Assembly (NCBI GenBank): GCA_008330645.1
Contig: VLTN01000001.1
Coordinates: 1,054,001-1,118,000, forward strand
Origin: Cafeteria roenbergensis
Taxonomy: Eukaryota; Sar; Bigyra; Bicosoecida; Cafeteriaceae
DNA: 64,000 nt
Direction of reading: 5' to 3'
Shown here one piece after another: positions 23,862 to 49,493 of this stretch (within the stretch, counting starts at the first letter, position 1; each line of letters opens with the position of its first letter). The notes below the pieces were generated by a model that was given only the letters and a program-made list of their open reading frames with translations, searched no databases and was not told the origin of the DNA. The position numbers were made by a program, and so were the translations under genes.

Positions 23862-26800
23862 TCAAGCGAGGAAGGCCTCGCGTGCGGCCGTGCTGCACGT
23901 GTCGCGCCAGCTGACGGGCAGGCTCTTTCCGATGAAATTGATGATCCACGCGGGGATGTTCCCGCGCGCGTCCGCTGCAGTGACGAAGCTGACGCGGCAG
24001 GCTGGGGGCTCTCCCGCTGCTGTTGGCACGTCCTGAACGGTGAAGCCGATGACTCCCAGAGTCAGGCCACGCGTGTGGTTCTTCCTCGGCGGGCACAGCT
24101 CGTGCTCAGCTGAGCGGAACATGATCACGTGCTCGCCGCGCTCGTTGTCGCTCATCACGTGCCTCACCATCGGAAAGTCCCTGGCCTGCACGAACGGGAC
24201 CGGTGGCGTTTGGGTCACGAAGTACAGGGCCTCGTTGTCGTCGTTGATGCGCCGCACCGGACGCACGTCCGCCCAGGACCGGTCCCACAGCGTGTATAGC
24301 TCCAGGTCGGCAATGACTGCTGCGACGGCAGAAGCAGGCAGTCCGTGAGACGTGAAGATGGCCGCACCCTTGCGGATGGCCGGGTTCTCCTCCGACGGTC
24401 GCATCCACGCGCGCAGCTCGCTGGATGGGTCGTCGATGGTCTGCGTCCAGCCGTGGCCGAGGGCGTCCGCGTCGCTCATCTCGAACACCAGCGCCGCGTC
24501 TTCCTCCACGAGCAGCGGCAGCGGCGCGCCGTCTGTGCTGTCCACAGACACGCCCCACGCTGCCGCGTCGGGGTGGACTTCCCTCAAGCGCCAGCCAGAC
24601 GAGGCCTCCAGCCAGGGGCCGTCGGCCTGCATGGCCGCGAAGGAGTCCGCGGGGCGTCCCGCTGCGGTGGCCCCCGTGTCGGCATCGCCCAGGGAGTCGC
24701 TGGTGCGGCAGCTGGCCGAGGCGCTGTCGCTGACGGGGCACTCGCTCCCGGCGCTGGCGGTGGAAGCGCCGTCGCCGCCACGGCGAGCGGCCAGGATGCG
24801 GCGCGCCTCGGGCCCGAAACCGTCTCGCAGCGCCTTGAGTCGATCAGCCCTGCTCGGGGCCGCGCCCTCCCAGGCCGGGGTGCCCGCGCCACGGGCCGCG
24901 GCAGCCCCCTTGGCGGCGGACTTGGCTGTCGCCGCGGGCGAGGAGCTCGAGCTGCTCCCAGCATCGGCGTGGGGCGCCGCGGCGTGAAACCATGCTCCGA
25001 CGCTGCCCCATCCGCTCGACTGAGGGGACCCAGCTCCGGCGGCGGCGGCCGCGGCGGCGCCCCCGCGGTGGGAAGGCGGTACCGCCGCTGCGGCAGCAGC
25101 AGGCTCCGACCCCGGCGACGACGCCGGGGCTGCCTGTGCCGCCTCCCGCTCAGCGGCCCGGCGGAGGGCGCGCCTCTCTGCGGCCGCCCCCGACCGGTAT
25201 GCGGCCATGACGTGGCTCAGAACCGCCTTGCGCGCACGGGGCCGGCTGACGCAGGGGCGCAAGAGAGTCGTGGCGCCCACCGCCAGGAGCGCCTCTGCGT
25301 CTGTGGGAGCCTCGCTCGCGGCCCGGGCCGAGTCCGTCGGCGCGGCCGACGCGAGCGTGGGGTCCCAGTGGGCAGGGTGGGGCACGAGCTTGGGGGCCAC
25401 CGCGGCATCGCTCCCGCCTGCGGCGTCGGGCGTGCCGGGGGCCCCGCCAGCGGGCTGGCATCGGGCTCCCGAGGAGAAGGGGGCGTAGCGCCAGTGCTCG
25501 GGAATGCCGGCCGCATCCAGCTCTGGGCACCAAGCAGCCGCAAAGCGGCCAGAAGGGTCGCGGTGCCGGGCGAAGCGGCCGGCGGCGGGGTCGGCCATTT
25601 GGTGGGGGTGGGAGGCGGGCGCCTCGGGCTCCAGGAGCAGGCCCAGGCTCCACTGCGCCCGGACGGCAAGGGCCGGCAACAGCGCCGCGCCCCCGACAAG
25701 CAGGCCCGCGAGCCACCGCACTGCCGCCTGCCATGGCAGGTGCATGTATTGGCACGCGTGCACGATAACGAGCGTCTGCAGGTCGGCCGAGAGCAGCCCG
25801 CAGGACGCCGCGCAGCGGACGGCCGCGTCAACGGCTGGGTACCCCGTGCGGCCCGATGCAAGCCAGGCCGCCCGCGCGGGCATGGAAGCGACAGCGGCGC
25901 TGGTCGCCTCTGCCCTCTGGTCGGCTGCCGTCGCGTCGGCCGCAGCGAAGGCGCGTGACACGACCGCCATGGCGTCGCCAATCGCCGCTGGACCAGAGAC
26001 AGCTGCGGCGGCCGCCCACTCGCCCGCCGACGCCGTGAGCGGCGACTTGGGCGCCCACGCGGGCACGCCGTGCCCGTCCAGGCAGCCGTCTGCGCCTGCC
26101 CAGGGCAGGCTGTGGAGGGCCATCCAGCGCTCTGGGACAGCTGCGTCAGCCGGTCGCCGATCGACGCGGCGACGGCAGTACTCGTCCCAGGTCAGCGCCT
26201 GGCGCACTGCAGCCTGCACGGAGAGGGCGCGCTTCGGGATGCCGCGCGTGCTTGAAGCGCTGGCGGCGTGCGAGCCCTCGGCACGCGCGCTCGCCTCGGC
26301 CAGCAGCATGGCTTCGCTCACAGCGCCCAGCAGCAAACAGCTGCTCAGCCCAGACGCAAGCAGGTCCACGGTGCCTGGCGCGGCGCCGCAGAGCGCCGCC
26401 GGGGTGCCGGCGGAAAGGTCAGCCGGCGTTGCTGCGCCCTCGGCCACGTGGTGCAGCGCCGCCTTCCACCCGCCCAGCGCCAGGGCCTTGGCGCACAGCC
26501 GCCCCCGGTCCGCAAAGGACAGCTCCGCACTCTTGGAAGCCACCCGGGCGGCAAAGCGCTCTCGCTCCTCGCGCCACAGGAGCTCCGAAGGCAATCCATC
26601 GGGAGACTCGACAGCGGAAACCAATGCGCCCGCCAGTGTTGAGTCGTCGCCGCGCTCGCGCCGCTCCACAGCCGCCAGCGAGAGCGCCATGCGCACGCAG
26701 CTCATCTCTCCAGGCCCGGCACATGCCCTGCGCGGGGCGGCGGTTCCAGGCTGGGGCGTCCCGGCGGGCCCAGCGGCGGCCGTGTCGGAACGGCCCGTGT

Positions 26801-27612
26801 CCAAAGACGCGCCGGGGGCGGCCGGCTGCGAACTGCAGGTCGAGCCGGCCGAGTCGCGTGCGCAGGGCCCACGCGAGACGCCTCCTGCAGACACGAGCTT
26901 CGCCTCAATACCGGCTGCGGCCGCTAGCTTGCGCAGCTCGTCAAGGCCGCTGCGCTCCTCGCCAACCAGCAAGGTCGTTGCCCCTGCCGCTGCGACGAGC
27001 TCCTGCGGCAACGGCAAGAGAGCGCAGCAAACGGGGCGGGGTCGGCTCCGAAGCGCGCCAGCCGGAGGAGCGCGCGAGGCAAGAGAGGGCGCGCGTCAAA
27101 GGGAGCCGGCGGAGGCGGCAACCCGCGGGAAACTGGTGCTGCGAGGTGCACGTCAGCAGTCCGCGCAGCGCCCGGACGACGCCCAGAGGGCATGGCCTTG
27201 CGCCCCGCCGACGGCAGCGCCCCCTGGCAGCTGCTCCGTGCGCAGCAAGCGCGGGCAGCGGGGCTCTGCGGTTGAGGAGGCGCCACCACGGCGCCACGAC
27301 CCCGGAACACCCGGCTGCGCGTGCCGGGCCAGCTCGGACGGCCTGCACCGAGTGGGGGCGGGCCCGGCTCACCCGAAACGCAGCATGGGACACGTCTCCG
27401 CCCTTCATCACGGCAAGGCCGCTACATAAGGCCTCGAGCCTCTCGTCCAAGGCGTCAAAGACGCCTCGCTCCCATGGAGCCGTCGCAGGGCAGCCGGCCC
27501 ACTCCTGCGTCGCAAAGGGAACGCAGGCCGCACCGGCGACGTGCTCCAGGAGCGGGTTGTCGTCGAGCCTCAAGCTCCCGTTGAGGAGGACAACCGCACA
27601 GGGGTCGGGCAT
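23862..27612 (-). CDS. Cryptochrome/photolyase-like protein fused to a START domain
   Basis: Two exons, 27612-27373 and 27002-23862, joined in phase 0 across a 370-base intron (GTGAGC...CCGCAG), give about 1126 residues. The N-terminus is the photolyase alpha/beta domain: VVLLNGSLRLDDNPLLEH, then FDALDERLEALCSGLAVMKG, then ELVAAAGATTLLVGEE. FAD-domain landmarks follow in family order: SGLSSCLLLGAVS (about 297), LTWDEYCRRR (348), GRTGYPAVDAAVR (463), DPSGRFAAAWCPEL (561) and PRARKAVLSHVMAAY. The HNR after GRTGYP and the NGGWQW segment of active photolyases are not conserved, so flavin chemistry may be altered or lost. An Ala/Ser-rich linker leads to a START domain (about 940-1126): LYTLWDRSWADVRPVRRI, QARDFPMVRHVM and ARGNIPAWIINFIGKSLP. 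START domains bind lipids. I know of no such fusion. Confidence 0.85.
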
Positions 27613-28022
27613 TGCCAGGGCACTGTGTCCGCGCCTTGCAGGTGCGGAGACCGCAACGCCATGGCGGCAGAGCAGTGCGCCAGAGTTGCAGCAGGTCCGA
27701 CGAAAATTGCCCCCAGCGCCCTGACAAAAAATCAAGCGCCTGCTCACCATGGGGGCCGGAGGCGAGCAATTGCTGGGCCGGGCAGCCCAGGCGACGCTGT
27801 CCAATGCGGAGCCAGCGACCCTCGGCAAGACCGGTCGTCGGCTGCCTCTGACTTGGCAGAGCGGCGATGCTCGCGTGCCAAGGCTTTGCGGGCGCACTCC
27901 AAGCCGCGGGGCCATTGCGCTCCCGCCTCGACCTGCCGGCAGTCGCCCGGGCAAGACGGTGGGGTCCTGCGCGGTCCTGACCAGCCGCCAGGCCCGCTGC
28001 TCGACAGAGGCGGGCGCTGGCC
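27613..28022. promoter_or_regulatory. Divergent intergenic region, possible bidirectional promoter
   Basis: 410 bases lie between the head-to-head photolyase-START gene (ATG 27612, minus) and the C2H2 gene (first ATG 28023, plus; the real start may be 28134 or 28245). No specific promoter element is recognisable. Confidence 0.35.
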
Positions 28023-30038
28023 ATGCTCCCGGGGAATCTTCGGGGTGGTGGCTGGCATGTTCCAGTGCGCTCGGGATCGGGCCCAGATGGACAGCCATCA
28101 TCGCTGCTCGCTTCCCACCACGCCGGGGCGCCCATGCTCCAGTTCGTGCGGACGTGTGTCTTTTATGGCTGGCGCGCCCCAACGGGGTACGGGGCGGCCG
28201 CTGCTTCGCCCGTGTCAGCAGCACCTCCACCGCACCATCAATGGATGTCCCTGGCCCGAGCCGACGTTGCGCGGCCGTTCCAGCCAGCCCCAGGCAGGGG
28301 GGCGGTGCCCTTCCCGTTTGGCTTCCCCGGCTTCGCGCCGGGCATGGCGATGCTTCCCATAGGGACTGGGGCGTGCCCGCCCCAGTTCCCGATGGCCTGC
28401 GAGCCGCCACCGCAGCAGCTGGTGACGCCACCGGAATCGGCCAGACTGCCGCCGGCTCGCCATGTGCTTCCCGAGCGAGCCCCGTCCGCGCGCCCGACCA
28501 TCGCGCCGCCTTCTCTTGCGTTTGAGCACAAGCTCGTCGAAGAGGGCGCCCAGCAACGGCCGCGCGGCACAAGCTGGTCGGTGCCGAATCGCGACCCCGC
28601 GAGCGGCAGCTCACGTCCGGCCGATTTGCCGTTGGTCCGCCCGCGACATCCGCACCAGGAGCGGACCCCCGCTTCCGATGCCCTCGCGGGGGGCACCTCC
28701 CCCCAAAAGACAGAGCCCGAGGCGGCGGGTGGGCAGGCCGCCCCTTCGCCCGCTGGGCCGAGCGCCAGAGACCTCGTCGAACTGCTCAGCCAGGGAGCAG
28801 CAACGAAATCGGGACACGGCGAGGAGTTCCTCTGCTCAATTGGCTCCTGCCCAAGGTCCCGGCCTTCAAACGGGTTCTCGCACCTGTCCAACCTCCGCCA
28901 GCACCTGCGCGCACACCTTGGGCACAGGCCGTACCGCTGTCGGTACCCGGGGTGCAGCAAGGCGTATGCCCACCCCACAAGCCGGAATGACCACGAGGCG
29001 GTCTTTCATCGCGGCGAGCGGCCGTACTCGTGCACGGTTTCAGGGTGCAGTCGGGGATTCACAAGCAGGGCCAACCTGTCGCGCCATCTTCGGGATGTGC
29101 ATGACGTGGGCGCGCGCAGGCGGAGGCGTCGGAAGGGAAGCGCCTCGCCGGACTCAGATCCGCAGGAGCTCTCCAGCCTCGTGAACGGGCATCAGCCGGC
29201 GGCAGCGCACGGCAGTGCAAGCGTGCCTCCCACGCCCGGGATGGAGGCTGCGTCCGCGACGCCAGAGGTCCCGCACGAGGCCGCCGCCCAGTTCCAGCCG
29301 TCGGCGCCGACCCCCGACGGGCAACCCGGGGGGGCAGCCTCTCTGACGCCGGGAGCAGGGCTGGCGTCGCCTGCCTCGGGGACGGCTGCGAGCTCCGTCG
29401 CAGGGTCCGCAACCACCGAGCAGGGGGACGGGGAGCACGCAGCCCAGGCAGCCCTCGCGTGCGCAGCGGCGGGAGACTTGGACCGTGGAGGCGTCGCCAT
29501 GCAAAGAGGGACGTTGCGTCCCAAAATCAGGAGGCGGCCGCGCCGGCGTGGGTTCGCGCGCGCGGCGTTGGAGGCCGTCATCGCCGACACGCTCGGCGGC
29601 GTCGTTGCGCCTCCGCCAGCCGGCCGCGCGGCCAGGCTGCCCCACCCGAGCGTGCAGGCCGCGCCTCGGCGCATGTCGCGCGAGAGCGAGACGGTTGAGG
29701 CTGCTCTCCTGAGGGATTCGCTGCCCAGCCTGGCGTTCGCGGCGGAGGCGACCTCCAGCGCGCCGTTGCAGCCCAGCGCGAGCAGTGGCTCCGACCATGC
29801 TGCGCATGTATCCATGGACCTTCCCCTTGGCACCCCGTTTGAATGGCGAGAGAGCGCGCTGCCCAGTCGCAAGCGGCCGCGCGCCGAGCCCAGCGAGCGT
29901 GCTGACGGCTCTGAGCTGCCTGGCAAGCGCGTCCGGCCCGGTTTGGAGGAAGAGGGAGACGGCAGCCCCGCTCCGCCCTCCGCACCCTCAAGCTCGTCTC
30001 GTTCCGTGGGGGCTTGGCAGCCGCAACAATGCTGGTAG
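28023..30038 (+). CDS. C2H2 zinc-finger protein, three tandem fingers
   Basis: Up to 671 residues. Three adjacent C2H2 fingers lie at about residues 270-360. Each has a C-x4-C knuckle (CSIGSC, CRYPGC, CTVSGC) and paired histidines (HLRAH, H-x4-H in HEAVFH, HLRDVH). They are linked by GHRPYRC and GERPYSC, typical of TFIIIA/YY1/ZIC-like DNA-binding arrays. The protein is therefore probably a sequence-specific transcription factor. The N-terminus is Pro/Gly-rich and the C-terminus Ser/Ala-rich, with a basic segment (IRRRPRRRGFARAA) that may be a nuclear localisation signal. Start uncertain: methionines at 28023, 28134 and 28245 are in frame, and the last begins the more protein-like MSLARADVARPFQPAPG. 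The gene stands head-to-head with the photolyase-START gene and converges on UBE2H. Confidence 0.8.
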   Translation: MLPGNLRGGGWHVPVRSGSGPDGQPSSLLASHHAGAPMLQFVRTCVFYGWRAPTGYGAAAASPVSAAPPPHHQWMSLARADVARPFQPAPGRGAVPFPFGFPGFAPGMAMLPIGTGACPPQFPMACEPPPQQLVTPPESARLPPARHVLPERAPSARPTIAPPSLAFEHKLVEEGAQQRPRGTSWSVPNRDPASGSSRPADLPLVRPRHPHQERTPASDALAGGTSPQKTEPEAAGGQAAPSPAGPSARDLVELLSQGAATKSGHGEEFLCSIGSCPRSRPSNGFSHLSNLRQHLRAHLGHRPYRCRYPGCSKAYAHPTSRNDHEAVFHRGERPYSCTVSGCSRGFTSRANLSRHLRDVHDVGARRRRRRKGSASPDSDPQELSSLVNGHQPAAAHGSASVPPTPGMEAASATPEVPHEAAAQFQPSAPTPDGQPGGAASLTPGAGLASPASGTAASSVAGSATTEQGDGEHAAQAALACAAAGDLDRGGVAMQRGTLRPKIRRRPRRRGFARAALEAVIADTLGGVVAPPPAGRAARLPHPSVQAAPRRMSRESETVEAALLRDSLPSLAFAAEATSSAPLQPSASSGSDHAAHVSMDLPLGTPFEWRESALPSRKRPRAEPSERADGSELPGKRVRPGLEEEGDGSPAPPSAPSSSSRSVGAWQPQQCW

Positions 30039-30591: not shown

Positions 30592-32350
30592 TCACAGGTC
30601 GCTCATTACGGAGGCATCGTCGTCAAAACCGGCGTCGTCAATGTCACCGCCGTCGTCAAAGCCGTGCCACTCGCTCAGCTGGTCCCAGGCTACAGCCCCG
30701 GGCGCCTCGCAGGCTCCCGACAACCGAGCCCCAGCTTGTAGGACGGTGGAGGCTGAGCGGCCGCTGCCTGGGAGCGATCCCGCCGGCGCGCCCGGCAAAA
30801 GTTCTGCGGCGCCTTGCCCCGCGCTTGCCGACCGTGCGCCGGCTGCTCCAGCGGCAGGACCAGCCGCAACTGCCGCCCGCGAAAGCACAAACGAGCTCGG
30901 TGCGGCCCCGTCAGCGGCAGATGCCGCGCCCGAGCTGCTGGGAGGCTCCGCCGGGCAAAGGAGCGGCGTGCGCGAGGCTTCGGCAATTGCCGCGTCATCA
31001 CCGCACTTGATCGCCGCAAACAGGCGCTCGACGAACGCGTCGTTTGCAAAGCTGGCAATGGTTTGCTTGATGCGCCGAGAGTATTGCGCCGGCTGCTGAG
31101 TCATGAGCTGGGCAGCAACGCTGTTCAGGGGGTCTGCGCGACTCGCGCACGAGCGGGCAGCAAGAGACTCCGAGTCGTCACGCTGGGTCGCTGGCTGTCA
31201 CATCTGCCCCTCGTTGCCCGGCCGGCGGGCTAGCGCCCAGCCATGAGCGCGGTCGCGTGCGCGCGGCAGGCGTGCGCCGACAGGGCGCGCTCTGGCTCAC
31301 CCGACGGGTTGGGGTAGCGCAGCAGCTGCGGCAAAAGCGCCGAAAAAATGTTCACGAGGTCTGCGAAGAGCAACGCGGCGAGCGGCAGAAAAAATCGCTG
31401 CGCGTTGGCCCGCGCGCCGACGGGCACTGCGCGGGCCCGCCCCGCGCACGCCCCTCCCATGGCGCTCCGCGAGCGCCATGGAAGTCGCCGCGAGAGGCCC
31501 ACGGCCTCTGGGCGCGGCGACGGCCGCGCCCGCGTGCAGCGCAGCTGACTTCGGCCGGCCAGCAAATGCAAGCGACCCCGACCGTGGGCGTGGGCATCTG
31601 ACCTCGAGCAAACAAACAACAACTCTCCACTCACCGTACATCGGCGTCCAGGTTGAGTTCAGCACGTCAAGGCAGATGCTGCCACTCCTCTCGCACACGT
31701 TTGGGTGCGTCATTTTGTTGCAGAACCCGACGGACGGGCTCTTGAACGGGTACTCAGCCGGGAGAACGACGCGAACAAGCCAGACCCCGCCCTCGTAGTG
31801 GGCTGCGGAGGCGGCCGGGTGCGCGGCATGAGACTCGCGGGGGACGCACGGGGAGGCCGCGTGAGCAAGGAGAGCGCCGAGCCGCGAGGGCTGCCCAAGA
31901 ACAAGCGAGAAAGCCGCTGCCAGCGCTGCAAGGGCAACACGAGCGGGCAGGCTCCGAGTGCCCCAGCCCCCAGCCCCCAAGCCAGGGGAAGCAGCTACAC
32001 GCCAGCCTTTTGGCACCGGACCCGGACCTGCGGGTGCCGGTGTCCACGGGCCGCAGCGGCGAGGTCGTGGAACTTTTGCGGCAGCTCACTCTCGGGCGGC
32101 CCTGGGAAGCGAACGATGAACTCGTAGCGCTCCTTCGACGGCCGGAACACCTCAAAGTCGCTCATCATTCTGCGAGGTGGCCATAAACCGCGGCGCCGGG
32201 ACTGCGGCGGGCCGGCGGTGGAGAGCGACCAAGGCGCCCGCGACCGGCTGCCACGACCCCCGATGACTGCGCCAGGGCGCATGCGGACGCTCACAGCTTC
32301 ATGATGTCGGTCTCGCGGCGGCGGGCAGCGCGCATCGCCGCGGCAGCCAT
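30592..32350 (-). CDS. UBE2H: Ubiquitin-conjugating enzyme E2, UBE2H type
   Basis: Five exons, 32350-32295, 32169-32090, 31802-31635, 31360-31301 and 31133-30592, give 301 residues. Every junction keeps phase, with GTGAG donors and CGCAG acceptors. The spliced protein follows human UBE2H nearly segment by segment. It has an N-terminal [46 protein letters not shown], then the active-site region [20 protein letters not shown] with the catalytic cysteine in [24 protein letters not shown] follows, then helix [19 protein letters not shown]2H is the E2 partner of the CTLH/GID ubiquitin ligase (known for the family). The C-terminal extension is longer than in animals (Ala/Ser-rich) but ends in a comparable acidic Ser/Asp tail ([10 protein letters not shown]). 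It is head-to-head with the methyltransferase gene. Confidence 0.96.
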
Positions 32351-32768
32351 CTGCCTTTGGGAAAAGTCAGGAACGCGGCTTTGTCGTGGGTGCGGGGGTG
32401 GGGCAGAGAGACGGGCGCTTCCAAACACAGCCAGAGTTGCGAGCTCGCCCACGTCATCGGAGGCGAATGCGTGCAACTCAACAGATATTGGGCTGGGGCC
32501 AAGCAACGCGGCAGCCTGGGCCTCGGCGTGTCGACACTGCATCCGGCCTCCAGCTCGGCTGAGGCGGTCCAGACCTCGGGGCGGCAACGAGATCGCGGGT
32601 CTCGGCACGCCCAGGGGGTACGGGGCAGCGGGGCTTGAACAGCCGGCCAGGCCATCGTCGGGTGCGGAACGCAGTCCCGCCTTCGGCTGCAGGCGCGGGG
32701 CTGCTGGGGGCAAGGCAACGAGACCGGTGCCAGCCTCGGGGAGGGGGGCTTCCGGTCAGCGCGCTGGT
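32351..32768. promoter_or_regulatory. Divergent intergenic region UBE2H / methyltransferase
   Basis: 418 bases lie between the UBE2H ATG (32350, minus) and the preferred methyltransferase ATG (32769, plus). The methyltransferase frame stays open back to 32301, across UBE2H exon 1 on the other strand. That makes the far-upstream start unlikely and leaves this interval as a candidate shared promoter. Confidence 0.4.
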
Positions 32769-34193
32769 ATGTACGGCGGCCCAGAAGGGGGCGGCGGCCG
32801 ACCAAGCGCAGTTAGCGGCGGGAGTCAAGCGGACGCCAGTGGAGGAGCGGCGCCGTTGCCCAGAGGCGCATGGATGAACCGGGGCACGCTCACGGGCCCG
32901 CCCGTGCCTGGCTGGAGGGCCCTTCCCACGTTGCAGCTGGTGGCGAGCGCGGCAAGGAGCGCCATCCTCTCCTGTGGCAGCGCACAGGCTGGCTGGGACG
33001 ACTTGCCAGACTCGTGGACCTGCGTCGGCTCAGCCCAGGATTCCCGCGGAACCCGCCGCAAGGGCAGCGTGTTCATGTCGCCCGAGGGCGCAACGTTTCA
33101 CAGTCACCGCGACGCGCTGGCCCACGAGCGGGCGCGCCAGCGCTTCGCTCCCCTCGCTGCCCCCGTTGGCTCGGGGCCCCACTGGCGCTGGGGCAGGCGG
33201 GAGTTCCCCCCTCTAGGGCGGTCCGGCACAGCTCCGTGGTACGCGGCGCCCACGCTCACCGTGCCCCGCGGCCCCGCGGCGGACGGGAGCGCTGCCCCGC
33301 CGACTCAGCCGCACCAGCAGCCTGACGAGGCCACCTCCCGCCGGTCCAGGCCGGCGGCCAGGCAAGCTGCAGACACGGTCGTAGCAGTGATTGGTGGGGA
33401 GTCGGCCCTTCGGTACGAGCGCTGGCAGGATGCGTTCGTGATGGCTGCCCAGCGCGAGTGGGTCGATTCCACAGCGGCGAGGCGAGGCGCCCTGCCCAAC
33501 GGCGCAGCGGCGGCGCCTGACGGAGCGGGCGCGCGTGCCGCTGTCCCAGGCACTGACACCAGCCAAGGCAGTGTGGGGGTCGGCGTTCCTCAGCGCTCGG
33601 AAGGGTCGGCGCGCGCTGCGCCGTCGAGGCTCCTTATGGCGCGCCAGGCTTTGGAGGCGCCAGTCCACCCTGACCTCGGGCCAGCCTACTTCGGCATCGC
33701 GCCAGAGGCGAACCGCCCTGGCTTTATGGCCGCCCCGCTGGCCAGCGCGACCGTTGAGGCAGTGGGCGGCTGGCAGCGGGGCGAGGCTTCGGCGGCCCTG
33801 GCGCGATGGCGGGCGGCAGGCGGGGCCCTGCATGGTGGCAGCGGAAGCGGCAGCGGCAGCGGCAGCGGCAGCTCCGAGTGGTTCTGCGCCGTGTCGCTGG
33901 GCAATTGCGCGGCAGCGCAGGCAGCGGTGGAGCACGTCGCGGACGACGACCACGAGTCCTTCTGCGGGGCGTGCGGGACCGGCGGGGAGGTCGTTTGCTG
34001 CGACCGGTGCACCTCCTCGTGGCATCAGCACTGCGACCCAGGGCTAGCGAAGGGGGTTCCGACGGGGGATTGGTTTTGCGGGGCGTGTAGGGCGGAGGCT
34101 CTGCTCCGGCGGGCCATTCGGCAGGAGGTCCGGCGCCGGCACGCGGTGTCGAGGGCCCTTCTTGCGACTCTTTCGCAGGCCGTGGTGGAACCG

Positions 34194-34231
<38 letters not shown>

Positions 34232-37200
34232 ACAGGGCAGGCCTGCGAGCGACATCTCTCTCGGCCCTCCGGAAAACGGAGGCCACGGCGACGACGTTGA
34301 TGGAGACGACAGGGACGACGCAGCGAGCCTCGGTGGTGGATCCACTTGGGGGCGAGAGGGAGACGACGAGTCAGACGCTGGCGGTGCCAGCGCCGGTGTC
34401 GGCGTCGGCGTCGGTGGCGGTGTCGGCGTCGGTGGCGGTGGCGGTGGCGGTGGCGGTGTCGGCGTCGGCGGCGGTGGCGGTGTCGGCGTCGGCGGCGGTG
34501 CAGGCAACGGCAGCGACTCCTCCCCCAGCCCAGTGATGCAGCGGTTCCACGACTTACTTGCGCTGACCGGCGCCGTGCCCAAGGCCCTGGCATCGGTGCG
34601 AAGCGTTGCTGGAGGCGGAGCTCACCCGGCGAGCGGAGCAGCAGCTGCTTCCGTTGCAGCAGCGAGCTCTGCCGGCGGGCCGGGTGATGCAGCCCATGCA
34701 GCCATCGGTCACGCTGGCGGTGTGGGCCCACCGGGCGCGCTGCAGGCGCCGCTTATGCCCATAAACCCCGACGGCAAGCCGGGGAAAGCCATCTCGGACT
34801 GGCGTCCGTGGGCCGAGAACAACGCCTGCCTCTCGTCTGTCGTGGCTCTGCCGCGAGCAGAGCCGATCCCGGCACCATTGCTGCCCTTTCCGCAGTCCGG
34901 AAGGGAGCAGGCTCTGCGCGTGCTGCTGACAGCCTTGCTGGCTGTGGGGCCGGACGGTCAAGTCGCCTCCCGCTTCCTGCTGTTCTCGCCGCCGCCGGGT
35001 TCCTGCCTGCGCTCGGCGCGTGCGCCGCCCTTGCCGCCCCGCGGGTTCTTGTTCGGGCTCGTGGAGGCCCTGGCGGGCGCCACGGCCGAGGCGGGCGAGG
35101 ACCTGGCTCACCTGTCGGCATGCAAGTGCCTCCAGCCCGGCGGGGCCTGGGTGCGCGCCTTTCACCCCGCGGCGCAGCCTTCGATGCGCGCCTCGGAGGC
35201 AGAAGCCTCGGTGCTGGCTCGCGTGAGCCCCGCCACCGCTCAGGCTGCTGAGGCGCTCGTGGCTGTCACGCCAGAGACTGTGCTCTCGGCGGTGTCCGAG
35301 GTGGCGGGCTGGGCGAAGTCGCTCTACGTGCGCGGCGTCAAGCCGCACACGCACTGCGACACGGTCGTGTGCGCCTGCAGCGATGCGGTGAAGCACGCCA
35401 GCGAGGGTTTCAGGGCAGCCTGGGCTGCATGCAGCCAGCTTTCCGAGGCAGCAAACCAGCCCCAGCCCAAGTCGGACATCCTGACCGTTGCCCAGTCGCT
35501 GATGGCACTGAGCGCAGATCGGCGCGCCAGCAAAATCTCCAGCCTGCTGAAGCGTCAGATCTGGAGGCTGTCGTCCACGGCGCGCGCCTACAAGGCCGCT
35601 CAACTGCCGGGAGCTGCCGCCGTGCCGCCGCGCGTGGAGGCTGTGGCGCGCGGCGTCGAGCTGCAGCAGCGCGCGGCGATGGAGCTCGGCTGCTGGACTG
35701 ACCGCGGAATGGTGGAGGACGCGGTGCTGCTCGGCAAGGTGGACAGCGTGGTCGTGCAGCAGCTGCTCAACGGCCCGGCGCGGCCCCACTGCTTCGAGTT
35801 CGCAGAGACGGCGAGCGAGGCGGCTGCGTTCTTGCTCGACCGCGTGCGGGCAGAGCTCGGGATCAACGCCCCTCTGCCGTTCTTCCTCCGCCCCGCCGTC
35901 GTGGCAGCCCTTGCTGGCAGCGCCGCGGCTCCGGGTGCGGGCGTTGATCAGCGGGCTGACTCATCGTGGGGGCCAGCAGCCAAATCGACCCCGCACTCGT
36001 TCGTCGCCGCTGCCGCCCGGCCAGCTGAGGCGCTCCCCTCTCCAGATGCCACCTCCTTCGCGCCCGCCCCGCCGCTCAGCGACACTGCGCCGTTCAGCTC
36101 GGCGGTTCCCGTGTCGCTCGGAGGCCGCGCGCCCTCTGCAGGCGCGGGACAAGTCACGGCGAACGGCAACGGCGCTGGGCCGCAGCCGCCCTCCGGCACC
36201 ACGTGGGGCGCCAGCGAAGCTGCCGCATCGGTCGCGCATGGCGGGTACGGCCGCCTTCGGCAAGGCGCAACCGCGGCGCCACAGTCGTCCTCGTTCGCCT
36301 CGGGCGCATTCGTGCCCGTGGGGCCACCCCCCATGCCTGCGCTGCTGCCAGTGCCTCAGTCGCTCCTGCCGCCGTCGACGTTTGACCAGCCCGTGGCGGT
36401 GCCTGCGTCGCAGCAAGGCTCTGCGCCGATGCGTCCCACGGTGGACGTCAGCGCCCTGCCCCGAGACACCGCTGCCCTCGCTTTTCCGCCTGGCGTTGTC
36501 GACCCTCGCTGGGGCGACACGCCCGGCGCCAGCGGGAGCAAGGAGGCGCGCCTGGCAACGGGGGGGCACCGCGCCCCTCCGCATCAAGGTGGCGCGCCCC
36601 CCCAGCCCCCCATGGGTCAACGGCTCAGCTCCAACGGCCAGGGGCTGCCGCTCGACGCATCCGGAGTTCCCGCCTGGCCGGGCGCGAGCCCGACCGGATC
36701 CACCCACACCAGCGCGATGCACGGCGAGGCGCCCGCGGGTGCGAGGCCAGCCCCGCGAGGACTCCGCCATGCTGCGGCAGTGGCGGCCGCAGCCGACGCG
36801 ACCTCGGCCGCGGTCCTTCCCAGAGCCCAGGCTCCTGGTCAGGAGGCAGATCACCATCTGTACACGCCCGCTCACGCGCCGGGCGGCGTGCGGGGCGGGC
36901 TCGGGCCGGCGTTCTATCCGCCGGCACCGTCCCCGACGCACATGCTGCCCAGCTCGGCTGCTTCCCAGAGCGCAGTGCCCTGGCATGGCCAGCCGCTCCC
37001 CCCTGTTCCCCCCTTCACCGCGCAGCGGGTCTCAGAGGCGGGGTCTGCTGGCGCCGCTGCGCCAGCACAGAGCCCTCCTGCCTCGTCACTTGCGGCAGAC
37101 ACGACACCCGTTGCGTCCCCCGGCCCTGACCCCACCTCTGCGGCTCAGGCAGATTCGCTGCCGGCGACGGAGGCGGCTGCTGGCGCCGGCGCCGGCGCAG

Positions 37201-40200
37201 GCGGCGCTGGCGGCGCGGCCGCTTCGGAAGCTGTGGGCGTTGACTCTGTCACCGCCCTGGCGCCCACAGACCCGCTCTTCGCCGCCTTGCCGAGCTGGGC
37301 GGGAGCGGCCGACAACGCGGTGCAGCGGCCGTTCGAGCCGGCGGACCGGGACGGCGCCGAAGCGCCCCTTGGGCAGCTGTCCAGGCGAGTGCACCGGTTG
37401 GCAAGAAAAATCGCGAGCGCTGCCGCAGCCGCGGGGCGGCCGATCAAGGAGGCGTCGCACGAGGACCTGGCGCTGCTCTCGGCAGCGGCCATGCTCAAGC
37501 ACCCCGGCGCCGCGGCCGCGGCCAGCCTGTGCGTGGACTGGCGGTTCGCGGCTCCAGGCAGCACGGATCCGCTCCCTGCTCCGTCCCAGGACGCCAACCG
37601 GGCGCTGCTGCTGCTCGCCGCAGAGGCTGCGTCGGTGGAGAGCGTGGCTTCCGACAGCGCCAGCGCGTCGCGAGGCAAGGCTTCGGCTCGGGAGGCAAGC
37701 TGGACTCTCGCGGGATTGCTTCGCTCCTCTGGGCTGTCTGACGCTCCCGCGCGCGAGGGGGCGCTTGCGGCGGCGCGGTTGCCATCGGATGCCCCCATCG
37801 TGGAAGAGGCGCCCGGCCCCACGCCCCCCGCTGAGCCTCCAAGCGGCGAGCGAAAGCTCGTCGCCTCGGACGCCGACACCGTGATCCGCACGCTCTCGGG
37901 CGGCATTCCCGCGCGAGGCCTGACAGAGTGGGGCGAGCGGCGGCGACCGCGGCGCTGGCACCGGCACCACTGGCCGGTGAGCGAACTTGCCCCGCTGGAC
38001 GACGCCCGTGCGATGGAGGCCGACCTGGGAGCCATCCTCGCGCCGCAGCTTGGAAGCGCCATGCGCGGCGACGCCGCCCCCCCCTTCCTCGCTCTCGTGC
38101 GCGCGATGGCGGCCGGAGCCAAGTGCGCATGGGACCTCCACGAGGTTGCAAGGAGCCCAGCGAAGCCGGGGGACGATACCGAGCTTTCGCGAGGCGGGCG
38201 GGGCGAGCCAGGAACGGCCGCCGCCGCCGCCAGCCGCGCAACGCGAAGCACGTTCTCAAGGGCCGTGCTCCGTGCCTCAGACAAGGCAGTCGCGGACTGG
38301 TCGCTTGCCGACCCTGGCGTGACCGCGGTCAACGCGCTCCTGCCGCCGGCGATGGCAGCCGCCATGGCCGGCCTTGACGCCGCCGCCTGTGGCCCACCCG
38401 GTGCCGGCAGCAGGGCCGGCCTGGCCACCCTGTGCGCTTCGCCCCTGCCCCCGCTGTGGGCGCACTCGCTCAAGGCCGCCTCGCCATTTGCGAACTCTGC
38501 CCACGACCCCACGGGCGGCGTGGCCATGGCGGCGTCGCTGGCCTCGCTGGGCAGCGATGCCTGCCGCTTGTACGAGCAGAGGCCAGACACGGGCTCCGCC
38601 CAGTCAGACACTCACTCGGCTTCCAGCGCAGGCAGAGCCGCGCTTGGGCTGCTGGCCAGGCCGCCCATGCCACCGCTCCTGCTCTCAGAGATCGCGTCAG
38701 CAGCCGCCGTGCGCATCGACCGGTCGGTGATCGATGCGGCCGCATCAGCAGTGCGAGCCGCGGGCCTGACTGCGTCCGCCGACGCTGGAGACGAGCCGCC
38801 CCGCATGGACCCCCGCCTGCCGCCCCTTCGCTGCGTGTCCTTGCTGTCAGGCGACCCCGCCAACTGCTGCGGCTGCCTCTTCGGCTGGACTCACGACTGC
38901 CCGTACGAAGCCGTCGTCTGCCGCCTCATGTCCTCCCAGGCAGTGCTGTCGCCGGTGTCAGCGGCCGAGGCAGCCCGCGTCCGCGCCGCTCTCCGGGCGA
39001 CCCGGCGGCTGGTCCAGTGGCTGGACCCGGCATCGGGCGCGCCATCATCCCGCAAAGCCGAAGACGCCCCGGCCAGCCACCAAGCCGAAGGCCAGTCTGT
39101 TCCCTCCAGGGCTATGCCAGCCCGGCATCGCAGCAGCAGCTCCCATGGGCAGCCTGACCGCCTGTGTATGCGGCTCTGCAGCCGTGCAGAGAGCAGCGAC
39201 GCTGCGCGGGCATTGGCCACCTGCGGCCCCGATGCCCTCTCGGCAGAGCTGGCACACGCCGCGCAGGTCGTGGCGCGCGGAGCGGCGGGCTCGGCCGGGG
39301 CAGCGGCTCCCGCCCGTGCTGAGCGCGCCGCCCCGGGACCGCCGCCAGGGTCTCTGGGGCGCTTTGTGGCGGATTGCAAGGCAGCAACAACCCTCCTGCC
39401 GGCTGCGGCGGCGTCGGTCCAAGGCTTGACCGCACTTGCAGCAGCGTGCGCGGATATTCAGGCTCGCGCGGCGAGCGTGGCAGTGGCTGAGTTTGCAAGC
39501 AGCGGTCGCGGGCTCGGCAACCGCGTGCCCAGTGACGGCGCCAACGCGCCGTTCAGGGAAGGATCCACCCTCGGCAGCTGCATCAACTCGCTTGTCTGCG
39601 TGCTGGGGGCGGTGTCCTCGGCTTGCAGCCACCTCCTGCGCGGCCCGCAGGCGGAGCCTTCGTCGGTCTCATCCGCGCGGGGGCACGCGCGGGCTGCGTG
39701 CAAGAGGCCACGGGACGAGCAGCCGCCGCGACCCGAGCACGGCCAGACCAGTAGCAGCGCGGGCAGCAACAGCGCGGGAAGCAGCAGCGCGGGATGCAGC
39801 AGCAGCAAGCGCCCGCGCTCTGACGTGGCTTCCAGCGCCCCTGCGGCGCGGCAGGCCTCCCAGCACGGCCTCGAGCGCGCCGTCTCCCAACGTCCCCACC
39901 CCCCTGGCAGCGCAGACGCGTTGCACCCCGCCGCCATGCCCGTGGGCGGCGTGCGCCCTGCCCCTCCGCCGACCAACCCAATCCCGCAGGCGGAGGCAGG
40001 CGCCCTTGACGCCATCGCCTCCAGCTCGCTCGCCGCCCTGGGCAGCGGCCCCCTTCGCCCGACTCCCGCCGCCGAGCTGGTGACCGCGTTCCTCAGCACC
40101 CGCGCGCGCTGCGGCGTGGTCGCAGGCGACGAGCCCCTCTCGCAGGGGCAGCTCGTGGCCAAAGCGGAGGCGTGGCGCTCCAGCCCGCAAGCAACGGCGC

Positions 40201-42590
40201 AGGCGGCCGACCAGCAGGACGACAGCTCTGCCGCACCGGCGGCGCGACGGCCAGAGGTCCGCGTGCGAGTGTCGCCGCTTGCCGGCGCCCAGAGGAGCGG
40301 GCGCGCGGCGGCCGACAGCGGGACGGGGGCAGCCGAAGAGCCCGCCCCTGTGCGGGCCTGGACGGAGCAGTGGGAGAGCCGGTCGCACACGCGGGTCACT
40401 CCCGCCGGCCACCCCAGCATCAGCGCCGCCGGCGAGCACGCAGTCTTCTGGGACCTGTGGTCGAAGGGCGTGCTGGGGGTGGCGGTTCTCGAGCGACGGC
40501 TGGAGGTGGAGGTGACCGCCAGGCCGCTCACGCAGGGCGAGCTCGTTGCTCTTGCCGTGCGCAGAGCCGCCACGGCGGGGCTGGAGAACGACCGCCTGTC
40601 CAAGTCGCTCGGAGTGCGACTCGGGGCGGGCGACGGACCCCATCTCCCGCCGCTCCCCTCCTTCACCGGCGCCTTCGTGCGGTGCCTCTGGGCCTCGCTC
40701 TGGGGAACTCTGGCAGCCGCCCCGCGCGGGAGCGGCCCCGCTGGCCTGGCCCCGCCGTTGGCAGCCATGCCTGCCCCTGTGGCGCCGGACGCTGGGCCCT
40801 GTCCAGACGAAGCGATCGTGCGTGACCGTCCCAGCGATGACCAGCCAAGGAGTCACGGCAGCTTCGCCGCCCCTGGCGCGCCAGAGGGCCGCGAGCGCCG
40901 CGCCCAGTTGTCCTTGCGGGCGCCCTGGCGAGGCCCGCTGCCTGCGGCCAGCTTCTCGGCGCAGCGCATGCCCGGCACGCCGTCGGACGGCGGCGCTGCG
41001 CTTGCGCTGCGGCGGGGGGTCACGCCCTTGAGCGAGGACGCTCACTTTGCAGCCTTGGCGCTGAGACTGGCAGCCGCCGGCATGGAGCGACCCGACGGTA
41101 TGGGCAGCGCGGACGTATACCGTCACGCTGGCAGAGCCCTGCTTCGGCAGGCCGCGATGCATCGCGTGCGGCCGCCCGCGTCGATGCCGGGCGTGCAGGG
41201 CGCACCGGCGCACGCTCCGGGCGGCGCAGCGGCGGTGCCTTCGCGGGAGGCGCTGCTGATTGCGGAGGAGGTGGTCCAGGCGGGCGCGGCCAGAGGCGCA
41301 GCGGGGGGCGCAGTCCCCGCTGTCACGGCGCAGCTGGCCGTGATGGGCGCTTCCTGTGCCGTGAGGGCGGCGCAGCGGCCAGCGGACGTGTGCCCGGCCC
41401 TGCTGGCAGCGGCCGTCGCGGCGTGGCCCCGAGCCGCGCCGCCCGCGCCTGCGCCCGCGCCTGGCGAGGGTGCAAGCGTCGAAGGCAGCGCGGCCGGCGA
41501 CGTGAGCCGCTGCGAGTCTGCCCAGGCGCGGGCGCTGGCATCTCTGCGCAGCCGCTTGTGGGGGCGCGGGGCCAAGCTTCCCCCGGCTGCGGCCGGCCTC
41601 AGCCACGCAGACGAGGACGAGCAAGGCTCGCCGTCGGCCTCTGACGACAGCGAGGGCACCTGCGCCACAAAGCAGCAGCCTCAGGGCACGGCGGGCCAGC
41701 CGCCGCCGAACCTGCTCACGCTGGCTGGGAGCAGCGACGCGCCACCGCCCCTCGCCCCAGCCATTCGTGAGGCGCTCAGGCTGGTGCCGGGCGTGGGGCC
41801 CGAGCGGCTCGTCCCGCTCTCTGCGCTCGCCCGCCGCGCGCGGTGGAACTGCGACAGACTGCGCTGCGGCCGGAGCCGCATCGACGGCACCGGCCTCTTC
41901 GCTACCGCCCCCATTGCGGCGGAGGACGTCATTGCGGAGTATGTTGGCGAAGTGGTGTCCGACTCAGAGGCTGACAAGCGGCAGAGCCGGTACAAGGCGG
42001 CCGGGCTTGCAGACTTTATGTTCCGGGTGGACAAGGACTGCGTCATCGACGCAACGCTGCTGGGCGGGCGAGCGCGGTACATGAATCACTGCTGCGAACC
42101 CAACTGCTTCGCCGTGGCCACCATGCCAGAGGTCAGCCACCCGGCATCGAAGGTGCTTGGGGTGGTGGGACACCGGGTCGCGGACCCGGCGCGCGCCCCC
42201 TACGTCGCTCTGGTCGGCCAGGGCGACGTCACGCCGCTGAGCGGGGCAGCACAGGCCGCTCTCCAGGCGCAGCAGGCCGAGACATCAGCAAGCCTGGACC
42301 TGCTCGGTGACCGGCTTTCCCGCTCCGACCCAGGCCTGGCCTTGCCTCCGCCGGACTTGCGTGCATGGGGAGCCGCCTCGGGGTCGCCCGCTCGCTCTCC
42401 CGCTGCGGCAGCTGCTGCGCCTCCCGGGGCAAGGCTGCGCCGCGTTTTCGTCTACGCCGCGCGCGCCATCGCGGAGGGCGAGGAAATCACATACGACTAC
42501 CAATTCGCCCCTGACTCGGCGCCCGTGGCATGCAACTGCGGGGCTCGGTCCTGCCGGGGGTCCCTCAACCTGCCGCCAACGGACGTGTGA
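32769..42590 (+). CDS. Very large histone methyltransferase: MBD-like, PHD finger, SET and post-SET
   Basis: About 3273 residues in one uninterrupted frame. Start MYGGPEGGGG chosen because the frame upstream overlaps UBE2H exon 1. Residues about 75-115 resemble a methyl-CpG-binding domain (DDLPDSWTCVGS, VFMSPEGATFHSHRDALAHE). A PHD finger follows at about 396-445 (FCGACGTGGEVVCCDRCTSS, WHQHCDPG, WFCGAC). Then come 14 glutamines (476-489) and a Gly/Val repeat (about 540-578). A Cys-rich patch (CCGCLFGWTHDC) lies near 2031. The C-terminal SET domain starts near 3025 (RIDGTGLFATAPIAAEDVIA, EYVGEVVSDSEADKRQSRY, YMNHCCEPNC) and resumes after an insertion of about 110 residues with AIAEGEEITYDYQF and the post-SET CNCGARSCRGSLN. 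The SET type is MLL/Trithorax/SET1-like, so H3K4 methylation is the likely activity. The centre is Ala/Pro/Ser-rich, with no recognisable FYRN/FYRC. Confidence 0.88.
34194..34235 (+). repeat. Polyglutamine (CAG/CAA) tract in the methyltransferase gene
   Basis: Fourteen consecutive glutamine codons, mostly CAG with two CAA interruptions, in frame just after the PHD finger. Confidence 0.95.
34388..34505 (+). repeat. Gly/Val-encoding GGCGTC/GGTGGC repeat
   Basis: An imperfect array of GGCGTC and GGTGGC hexamers encodes an alternating Gly-Val and poly-Gly stretch in the methyltransferase, about residues 540-578. Confidence 0.9.
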
Positions 42591-43961: not shown

Positions 43962-46788
<2,827 letters not shown>

Positions 46789-47024
46789 GGCCCAACGCCG
46801 GCCCGGTGGCGGACTATTGCGCCCGCCGTTTGGCGGTTGTTGTCGTGGGCGCGCTGCTCTGCCACAGCGGCCGACTGCCCAAGAGTTGGCAAGCCCGGCG
46901 GCTCCCGTTGGACGCAGCGGAACACGCACCCCACCCAGCGGACGCTGGCCGGGAACCGCTTGGGGAGGGATTTCCCTGCTCCGTCTCGCTCGGCTGGGCC
47001 GCAGGCGGGGGAGTACAGGCGGCA
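46789..47024. promoter_or_regulatory. Candidate bidirectional promoter, sirtuin / TMEM135
   Basis: 236 bases lie between the start codons of head-to-head genes. The TMEM135 frame is open upstream across this interval and over sirtuin exon 1. The ATG at 47025 is preferred because it avoids that overlap. Confidence 0.35.
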
Positions 47025-49493
47025 ATGAACCGTGTGCTCTCGGCCGTATTCTGGCAACCAGCTCAGTCTCGCGAGCGGCTGGCCCCGCAAAGTCCCGCGC
47101 CCGCTGCCGCGCCCGAGGAGGCGGCGCCTGCCGGACATGTACCGCCAGTCGAGCTGCCAGCGGCCGCCCCGGCCCCCGCTTGGGGCGAGGACGTGGATCG
47201 CCGCCACCGGGCTGCGATTGAGCAGCTACACGAGGACTTTCGCGCCGCCGCGCAGCAGCGCCGGTCGCGCATCTGCAAGCACCAGGGCCCGTGTGCGACC
47301 AACGCGCTGTGGCTCGCTGCTCGGGCGGGGCTCGGGGGCTTCGCAGCCAAGGCCCTGCTGGAAGCTGCAGTTGCCTTGCTGCGCAAGAGGTCGCTGGCGG
47401 CTGCCGGCCAGGCGCTCTCCAGCCGCGACACGGCCCGTTTCGCGCTGTTCCTGTCGGCCATGGTGGGCGGCGCTGCTGGCACCCGGTGCCTCCTGGTGTG
47501 GCTCCGGGGCCGCGATGACCGGCTCAACGCGGCGGTTGCGGGCGCTGTTGCAGGCGCGGCGTCGCTTCTCGACTCGCCCGCCCGCCGGCGCGGCGTGGCC
47601 CTCTACCTGCTCGTCCGCTCTCTCTACGCGCTGGTCCACGCCCTGATGCGCCGCCGCGTGCTCACGCGCATTCCCGGGTCCGCCACCGCGCTCTTCGCCT
47701 CGGCAAACGCCCTCATCATGTACGCCTTCATCGCGGAGCCTCAGCTGCTGGACCGCTCCTACTACGCGTGGATGCTGCGCACTGCCAACATCACCGGCGC
47801 CGTGATCAGCTACACCATGCGCGAGACCCGGCTCGGCATCCACCCCGGAGTGCCCGGAGTCACGCCCACCCCTCCGGGCTGCAGCTGCCCCGACCCGGCG
47901 GCGGTTTCGCCTGCGTCCGGGTCGCCGGCTGGGGTGGACGTGCTCTCGGGCGTGGTGGAGCTGGCCGCGCTGCTGGGCGCCGCAGCGGGAGCCCCCGCCC
48001 CCCGCCTGCGCGCCGGCCTGGGGCTCAACCCCGCCGCCGCCCCGTCCGCCTCCGCCGCGTTTTCCGCCGAGGCGACCGGTGGAGTGGGCGCCGGCGTGGA
48101 GGGCGTCGCGCGCGACCGCGACGCCGTGCTCAGCTACAGCGCTGCCATGAACACGCCCCTGGACGCGACGAGCGGGGCTCTGCCGGAACTGAGCGACGCG
48201 GCAGGGGGCGCCGACGCCCCCTCGCTGCTGGGGCCGGCGCGGCCGGTTCAGGCCGGCTCGTCGGCGAGTGCGGTGGCGACCGGCCCGCTGACCACGTCGG
48301 ACGGGTCGGTGACTGAGGTCGGGTCTGGGTCCCACCACTTCGGCTTCCACACCACGGGCAAGGCGGTGCGCGAGGCAACGGGCGTGGACTTTATGACTGC
48401 CAACGGGTGGGGCGACCTGCCCGGCGGGGGCAGGCAGCTACGCAAGGGTGGCGGCGGCTCGACGGCCATCGCGCGGCTCTACTCTGCGGCAGAGCTCGGT
48501 GTGAGCGAGCTCTGGGCAACAGCCCCGGCGCCGGACAGGGGGGCTCGGGGTGACGGAGCCCCCGCTCCTCGGCTGCGGCTGGTGCCAGCCGCGCGCGAGC
48601 GGGTGTGGCGGGCCGCGCTGCCCCCGGACCAGCGGTCTCGGAGGCTTCCCTCGCAGGCAGAGCTGGCTGCGCGCGGCGCGCTTCTGCGGCAGGCGCCGCC
48701 GCGGGCGCTGCTCCCCGGCGTTCCCTGCGGTCCCGCCTTCTTCCGGCGCTGCGACGAAGTGTACCACCCTGGCGAGAGCTGCGCTGTGGCGCACGCCAAG
48801 GACCTGCCGGCGCTGGTTGGCCGCTGCCTGCGGCTCTACGCGCCGGTGCACCTCGTTCCGCTGCTTCTGTTCCGGGCTCGCGCCGCCATCGCCGACCCCG
48901 TCAACACGTCGATTCGCGCTGCGACGGCCATCGCCCGGTCCACCGCCTTCCTCACCACGTACGTGTCTGTGGTCAAGGCTTCGCTGTGCCTCGAGCGAAA
49001 CGTTCGAACTGCTGACTCGTGGTGGCAGGCGTCGCTGGCGGGCGTGCTGAGCGGCCTCGCGCTGTCGTTCGAGGCTCCGAAGCGCGCCTCCGAGCTCATG
49101 CTGTACTGCCTGCCCAAAGGCCTGGACGTGGGCTTCCAGCTCCTCGAGCGGCGGGGCCTGGTGAAGCGCATGCCCTACGGGAGCGTTGTCATGTTCAGCG
49201 CCGCCATGGCCATTGTGCTTGCGCTGGACCGGTCGGACTTTCGGCCGGCATACTCCTCGTTGCTCGGGCTGCTCTTCGGCAATGACCAGAGCACGTTCAA
49301 CTCCGACCCCGTGGCCGCGGGAACAGCCGTGCGCTCTGCTCGGCGGGCCCTCCGCCCCGCCCCGCCGGGGCCTCGCGGCCGGGACCCGCCCGGTGGCGAA
49401 CAGACCGCTCGCGCGAGGGCGCTGCCAGCCCTGCCGGAAGCCTCCGACGGCGAAGAGGAGGCTGCCACCCCGCGGGCAAGTCCCTCCCCGTAG
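47025..49493 (+). CDS. TMEM135: TMEM135-like multi-span membrane protein
   Basis: About 822 residues from MNRVLSAVFWQP; a longer reading from 46617 is possible but overlaps the sirtuin's first exon. TMEM135 proteins are membrane proteins of mitochondria and peroxisomes, linked to organelle dynamics and lipid handling in animals. The N-terminal half shows the family's Cys-containing entry (CKHQGPC, about residue 84) and RFALFLSAMVGG. Then come CLLVWLRGRDDRLNAAVAGA, which closely matches the animal motif, and hydrophobic ALYLLVRSLYALVHAL. A low-complexity insertion of about 270 residues separates this from the C-terminal half. There the family blocks reappear: RRCDEVYHPGESC (about 577), LRLYAPVHLVPLLLF, LSFEAPKRASELMLYCLPKG and a final hydrophobic segment. 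It is followed in tandem by the RABGGTA gene after 197 bases. Confidence 0.85.
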   Translation: MNRVLSAVFWQPAQSRERLAPQSPAPAAAPEEAAPAGHVPPVELPAAAPAPAWGEDVDRRHRAAIEQLHEDFRAAAQQRRSRICKHQGPCATNALWLAARAGLGGFAAKALLEAAVALLRKRSLAAAGQALSSRDTARFALFLSAMVGGAAGTRCLLVWLRGRDDRLNAAVAGAVAGAASLLDSPARRRGVALYLLVRSLYALVHALMRRRVLTRIPGSATALFASANALIMYAFIAEPQLLDRSYYAWMLRTANITGAVISYTMRETRLGIHPGVPGVTPTPPGCSCPDPAAVSPASGSPAGVDVLSGVVELAALLGAAAGAPAPRLRAGLGLNPAAAPSASAAFSAEATGGVGAGVEGVARDRDAVLSYSAAMNTPLDATSGALPELSDAAGGADAPSLLGPARPVQAGSSASAVATGPLTTSDGSVTEVGSGSHHFGFHTTGKAVREATGVDFMTANGWGDLPGGGRQLRKGGGGSTAIARLYSAAELGVSELWATAPAPDRGARGDGAPAPRLRLVPAARERVWRAALPPDQRSRRLPSQAELAARGALLRQAPPRALLPGVPCGPAFFRRCDEVYHPGESCAVAHAKDLPALVGRCLRLYAPVHLVPLLLFRARAAIADPVNTSIRAATAIARSTAFLTTYVSVVKASLCLERNVRTADSWWQASLAGVLSGLALSFEAPKRASELMLYCLPKGLDVGFQLLERRGLVKRMPYGSVVMFSAAMAIVLALDRSDFRPAYSSLLGLLFGNDQSTFNSDPVAAGTAVRSARRALRPAPPGPRGRDPPGGEQTARARALPALPEASDGEEEAATPRASPSP

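Follow-up and report, generated by a model that had tools for sequence, protein, structure and literature searches.

Work on cryptochromes treats them as light sensors that use flavin and pass the signal on through their C-terminal tails. What, then, is a protein in which a cryptochrome/photolyase (CPF) module ends in a lipid-binding domain, and can its CPF part still work with flavin? The question is raised by a minus-strand gene of Cafeteria roenbergensis that lies in the 64,000-nucleotide stretch analyzed here (the window). The original prediction read this gene as a CPF module followed by a linker and a START domain, and it saw two possible functions: a coupling of light or redox sensing to lipid binding or membrane recruitment, or a photolyase scaffold without flavin chemistry. 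The architecture was borne out by two independent domain matches above their cut-offs and by the codon signal. The functional readings fared differently.

Gene Structure and Coding Signal

The gene was modeled as two exons on the minus strand (Table 1), with an ATG at 27612 and a GTGAGC donor ending exon 1 and with CCGCAG at the 3′ end of the intron, all read from the sequence. The spliced product has 1126 amino acids in one open frame. Because the window is ~72% GC, an open frame is weak evidence of coding, and it is the codon signal that carries the argument for continuity. We scored codon usage after training on 5171 codons from seven further coding stretches, with dinucleotide shuffles as the control. 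The score rose from −0.25 to +0.24 at the ATG at 27612, and the frame signal extended from there to the stop codon. Exon 1 gave z 3.6 and four further pieces of the CPF module gave z 4.5 to 6.0, with none of 500 shuffles reaching the score of any of these five pieces; the START part, at z 8.0, had the strongest signal along the gene. The intron carried no codon signal in its three frames (z −1.7 to 0.6), and z did not exceed 0.8 in any of the three frames of the 5′ or the 3′ flank. A start at the upstream in-frame ATG at 27750, which might have added a targeting sequence, is disfavored because the score, negative at that position, becomes positive at 27612.

Table 1. Features of the predicted gene in window coordinates
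Feature	Positions	Strand	Description
Exon 1	27373..27612	−	Residues 1–80 (80 codons); first part of a putative diverged photolyase alpha/beta domain
Proposed GT-AG intron	27003..27372	−	370 bases; boundaries from sequence
Exon 2	23862..27002	−	Residues 81–1126 plus stop codon; remainder of the CPF module, then linker and START; open frame and codon signal
CPF FAD-domain core	25467..25877	−	Residues 456–592; GRTGYP and DPSGRF..W.PEL shell intact, flavin pocket altered
SAD in place of HNR	25782..25790	−	Residues 485–487; HNR is the sequence here in many CPFs; from alignment
Pocket substitution Arg to Gln489	25776..25778	−	Arg in 76/76 bacterial CPFs and in the genome's own CRY-DASH and (6-4)-type protein
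Pocket substitution Asp to Gly517	25692..25694	−	Asp in 76/76 bacterial CPFs and in both own paralogues compared; alignment looser than near 489
Probable C-terminal CPF helices	25176..25466	−	Residues 593–689; codon z 4.5; helical in AlphaFold model, partly low confidence
Ala/Ser/Gly-rich linker	24543..25175	−	Residues 690–900; probably disordered; same-frame codon signal
START domain	23922..24437	−	Residues 936–1107; PF01852 50.7 bits, cut-off 22; nearest solved relative STARD10

Evidence for the Two Domains

A profile search of the N-terminal part found a CPF domain, as had been anticipated: Pfam FAD_binding_7 matched residues 456–589 at 48.8 bits against a curated cut-off of 27 (E 7.4e-13), and the window gene reached 52.5 bits in a genome-wide profile search. 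In the PDB, a sequence search with the CPF part returned Cryptochrome-2 (E 5e-7), and the closest match among bacterial CPFs (locus L009) was 34% identical. The NCBIfam models crypt_chrom_pln and crypto_DASH gave 26.5 and 9.9 bits in the exon 2 frame, against cut-offs of 603.85 and 317.05 that are meant for full-length proteins. PF00875 matched exon 1 alone with E 0.088 and the spliced residues 1–220 with E 5.8e-4 (match 7–106, 20.3 bits, below the cut-off of 26.6); a colinear CPF-HMM segment in this region scored 8.4 bits. The N-terminal Rossmann-like photolyase domain had been described as split by one intron; the intron model stood, but the domain match is weaker than that description implied, and an alpha/beta domain at this position is weakly supported by the sequence. 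Similarly, the FAD-domain landmarks SGLSSCLLLGAVS and LTWDEYCRRR do occur in family order, but they are supportive rather than significant because the CPF HMM scores the SGLSSCLLLGAVS stretch at just −2.2 bits.

Downstream of the FAD core, the CPF module probably extends to about residue 689, where LLRPCVSRPRARKAVLSHVMAAYR was judged by eye to be similar to the final CPF helix and the AlphaFold model is helical. This model, built on the CPF alignment, had an overall pLDDT of 64, with about 90 in most of the FAD core and 74 and 56 at residues 531–550. Foldseek matches to it were weak (best E 4.6e-4; five at E 0.001 or better). The START match (E 1.9e-13) covered profile positions 11–188 of 207, and a PDB search with this part returned STARD10 (E 2.8e-9) and STARD3 (E 3.6e-5); a single-sequence AlphaFold model of the region had a pLDDT of 37. 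Scans of viral contigs with START alone, the CPF alignment, and the START alignment yielded no confirmed homologue.

Other CPF and START Genes in the Genome

Family profile searches of the same genome (36,303,456 bases in 167 contigs) scored the best candidates only, so the resulting counts are lower bounds: at least five other CPF genes and at least three START places, the window's included. One of the CPF genes is a CRY-DASH on contig C53 (crypto_DASH 476.5 bits, cut-off 317.05). Another, on C20 (FAD_binding_7 240.4 bits), we take to be of the (6-4) type by motif, and those on C49, C2, and C31 presumably resemble class II photolyases, again by motif. A Pfam scan of one frame each of C53, C31, and C2, three of C49, and one of the two C20 frames found no START hit in these CPF frames. 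Further genes that may serve in DNA repair and light sensing would leave the window gene free to change.

Several frames were recorded in the course of this survey. At L091:900-3611 (G000:C31), a 904-aa frame scored 36.4 bits with DNA_photolyase, vs. 78 for the C2 gene, and its C-terminal half looks class II-like by eye; it is possibly another altered photolyase. The (6-4)-type FAD domain at L008:1724-2764 (G000:C20) has an extra ~50 residues between its LNNGE and GNWMW segments, perhaps an in-frame intron. A START domain also occurs in a 1289-aa frame at L006:1249-5118 (G000:C5:656248-660117, +), together with ACBP-like and PH-like matches below cut-off and a 2-oxoacid dehydrogenase acyltransferase domain; this frame represents two genes or else another unusual fusion with a lipid domain. 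Within the window, the divergently oriented neighbor at 28023-30038 (+) has C2H2 zinc-finger matches below cut-offs, and a 3429-aa open frame at 32301-42590 (+) has a SET domain at its end. Farther along, a Sir2-family match at 43962-45908 (−) falls in two stretches that, by eye, are separated by a long insert of low complexity, and a 958-aa frame at 46617-49493 (+) matches Tim17/Tim22/Tim23/Pmp24 just above the cut-off (34.7 vs. 32.7 bits).

The Flavin Pocket

We compared the pocket with those of 76 bacterial CPFs and of the genome's own CRY-DASH and (6-4)-type proteins. At the 51 columns at least 85% conserved among the bacterial sequences, the window protein kept 33 residues and the CRY-DASH 43; the (6-4)-type protein kept 37 of the 50 columns that it spans. 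Since this total is barely below that of a presumably working paralogue, the identity of the lost positions matters more than their number. The loss of HNR and NGGWQW, noticed at the outset, was confirmed by alignment. No other frame of 23862-27700 scored above −1.2 bits with the CPF HMM, and therefore no frameshift conceals these motifs. Their loss had also been taken as a possible sign of lost flavin chemistry, but it is not decisive because 41 of the 76 bacterial CPFs, the closest match L009 among them, are also without both Asn residues. Position 486, Ala in the window protein, is Phe in 41 bacterial CPFs, Asn in 33, and Gly in 2; position 525, here Leu, is His in 41 and Asn in 35; and position 487, here Asp, is occupied by Arg in the bacterial set and by Leu in the genome's (6-4)-type protein. 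As an observation on the bacterial set itself, 41 sequences (loci L009 and L012 included) have Phe for the HNR Asn, and three further positions of the pocket show the same count of 41, for His, Glu, and Leu; these equal counts suggest one bacterial group sharing the variants.

The replacements at residues 489 and 517 (Table 1) fall on positions without variation in the bacterial set. That of Arg by Gln489 is firm because the alignment at 483–489 is free of gaps against the bacterial sequences shown. Where the alignment is looser, Ala519 stands in the place of an Asp or Glu found in 76/76 bacterial CPFs. Gln548 aligns with an Arg (1.00 in bacteria) that both own paralogues share, and Ala282 in place of the family Tyr is alignment-dependent, with a gap in one alignment. 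Retained pocket residues comprise the phosphate-side serines S297 and S300, W352, and, on one gap-dependent alignment, Q348.

Mapping through the own (6-4)-type protein by motif, we take R356 of ErCry4a (robin Cry4a) to be the position aligned with Gln489; the window protein has Gln in place of Arg there, a change that differs from the charge reversal of R356E. The available passages on ErCry4a list W350, H353, R356, D385, and D387 among its FAD contacts and describe the R356E protein as still folded and FAD-free (PMC13051451). For Drosophila CRY, excerpts of another paper report that single substitutions near the pyrophosphate and the adenine had small effects and that a double one cut occupancy by ~58%, and they describe type II animal cryptochromes as lacking the requirements for secure FAD binding (PMC5357904). 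Judged from these sequence comparisons, retention of FAD by the window protein is unlikely because the Arg is lost together with the acids.

What could a CPF part so altered be for? It may be a decaying relic, with the START domain doing the work while the N-terminal module drifts. The modest domain score, the many family-conserved residues that are gone, the peak of codon signal in the START part, and the other CPF genes of the genome would all fit decay, and the absence of stop codons from the CPF frame counts little against it because GC is high. However, the codon signal of all five CPF pieces is still clear, and GRTGYP and the DP.G...W.PEL shell are intact, and we regard decay as unlikely. 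Improbable, too, is a working light or redox sensor, in which FAD would be held by alternative residues and photochemistry would alter the lipid loading of START or its recruitment to membranes. The CPF shell and GRTGYP elements and the phosphate-side serines speak for such a sensor, as does the fact that 41 or more of the 76 bacterial CPFs likewise have no Asn at 486 or 525. Nevertheless, the light-sensing reading is disfavored because the pocket Arg and Asp are replaced, and the FAD-free state of ErCry4a R356E, as given in the available passages (PMC13051451), also argues against it. By the same pocket substitutions, the scaffold without flavin chemistry is the better supported of the two functions that the original prediction had offered.

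Continuity through the Linker

The CPF and START domains could also belong to separate genes that happen to share a frame, the START gene beginning, for example, at Met871 (in-frame ATG at 24632). Several results accommodate this. The linker frame remained open in 202 of 1000 shuffles, and of 1308 windows of equal length, taken in all frames of the 64 kb and including coding stretches, ~7% reached the linker's score. Divided into pieces and scored with full training, the linker gave z 2.2 at residues 690–760 (9/500 shuffles), 2.8 at 760–830 (0/500), and 4.0 at 830–900 (0/500); under the strictest training, on Pfam-matched segments only, the first two fell to 1.3 (43/500) and 1.5 (33/500). The codon signal is weak at residues 690–830. 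Against two genes, the CPF frame runs without a stop codon to 23862, and the linker as a whole gave z 5.2, matched by 0 of 1000 shuffles, and z 4.2 under the strictest training (0/500), with 0 of 500 shuffles reaching its score under either reduced training set. Two genes are very unlikely in our estimation. Continuity from CPF to START is likely but not certain on the codon signal, and the fusion is likely real, as one continuous protein. The emptied pocket might instead hold a different ligand, such as a nucleotide, a lipid, or a small metabolite, to be passed to START or to gate it. This would suit the change of charged positions to neutral or small residues within a kept shell, but the model has low confidence in the pocket stretch 531–550, and we give the idea little credence.

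Proposed Role of the Protein

The explanation we favor, with a confidence somewhat better than even, is that the 1126-residue protein is a pseudo-cryptochrome, a CPF fold without FAD, joined by a flexible linker to a STARD10-like START domain. The CPF shell would serve as a light-independent, flavin-free binding scaffold, much like the flavin-poor vertebrate clock cryptochromes, and the START domain would bind one lipid molecule, probably a phospholipid or a sterol. Such binding would serve lipid delivery, lipid sensing, or membrane docking of the complex; the linker would give the lipid module access to a membrane while the CPF scaffold holds a partner. Weighing against this pseudo-cryptochrome are a conservation total near that of a paralogue, losses common to relatives, a Gln rather than an acid at 489, the retained S297 and S300, weak models, and an N-terminal domain below cut-off. 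More tentatively, and at rather less than even confidence, a former light sensor may have become a lipid-sensing or lipid-delivering adaptor: a CPF protein of a heterotrophic protist that is flavin-free and light-independent, with START as its fixed output. If true, the favored explanation would show reuse of the CPF shell after loss of light chemistry in a heterotrophic protist lineage. Cafeteria strains are in culture, according to the available part of PMC6972860, which makes transcript, flavin content, and lipid binding directly accessible.

Comparison with Known Systems

Plant CRY1 and CRY2 and the class I and III photolyases differ from the window protein in its replaced pocket Arg and Asp and its weak N-terminal domain; where they usually have a poorly structured C-terminal extension, it has START. 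STARD10 and STARD3 have START domains matching that of the window protein in sequence, and we know of no cryptochrome module attached to either. Type II animal cryptochromes keep the pocket Arg and Asp, unlike the window protein, and to our knowledge have no START domain. In excerpts of PMC5357904, they are vestigial flavoproteins that combine a CPF fold with poor FAD retention and a light-independent function, the same combination as proposed here. A possible precedent is chain Ff of PDB 7pua/7pub, annotated "DNA photolyase, putative," in a Trypanosoma brucei mitoribosome assembly intermediate; there is no indication that the window protein acts in the mitoribosome, and a literature search for this chain found no paper. 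A search for the CPF–START architecture, which reached few subscription papers, likewise found none: the returned passages of cryptochrome and photoreceptor papers carried no mention of START, and no such fusion appeared in the titles and abstract openings of the stramenopile CPF, NewPHL, and plankton photoreceptor literature. As far as the available passages describe it, the dualchrome DUC1 of a marine unicellular eukaryote also joins a cryptochrome to another module, its partner being a phytochrome photoreceptor, in contrast to the lipid-binding domain of the window protein (PMC8591175). Cryptochrome fusions (PMC8591175) and flavin-poor cryptochromes (PMC5357904) are thus already known separately in this literature, as far as its accessible parts go, and what would be new here is the pairing of CPF with START.
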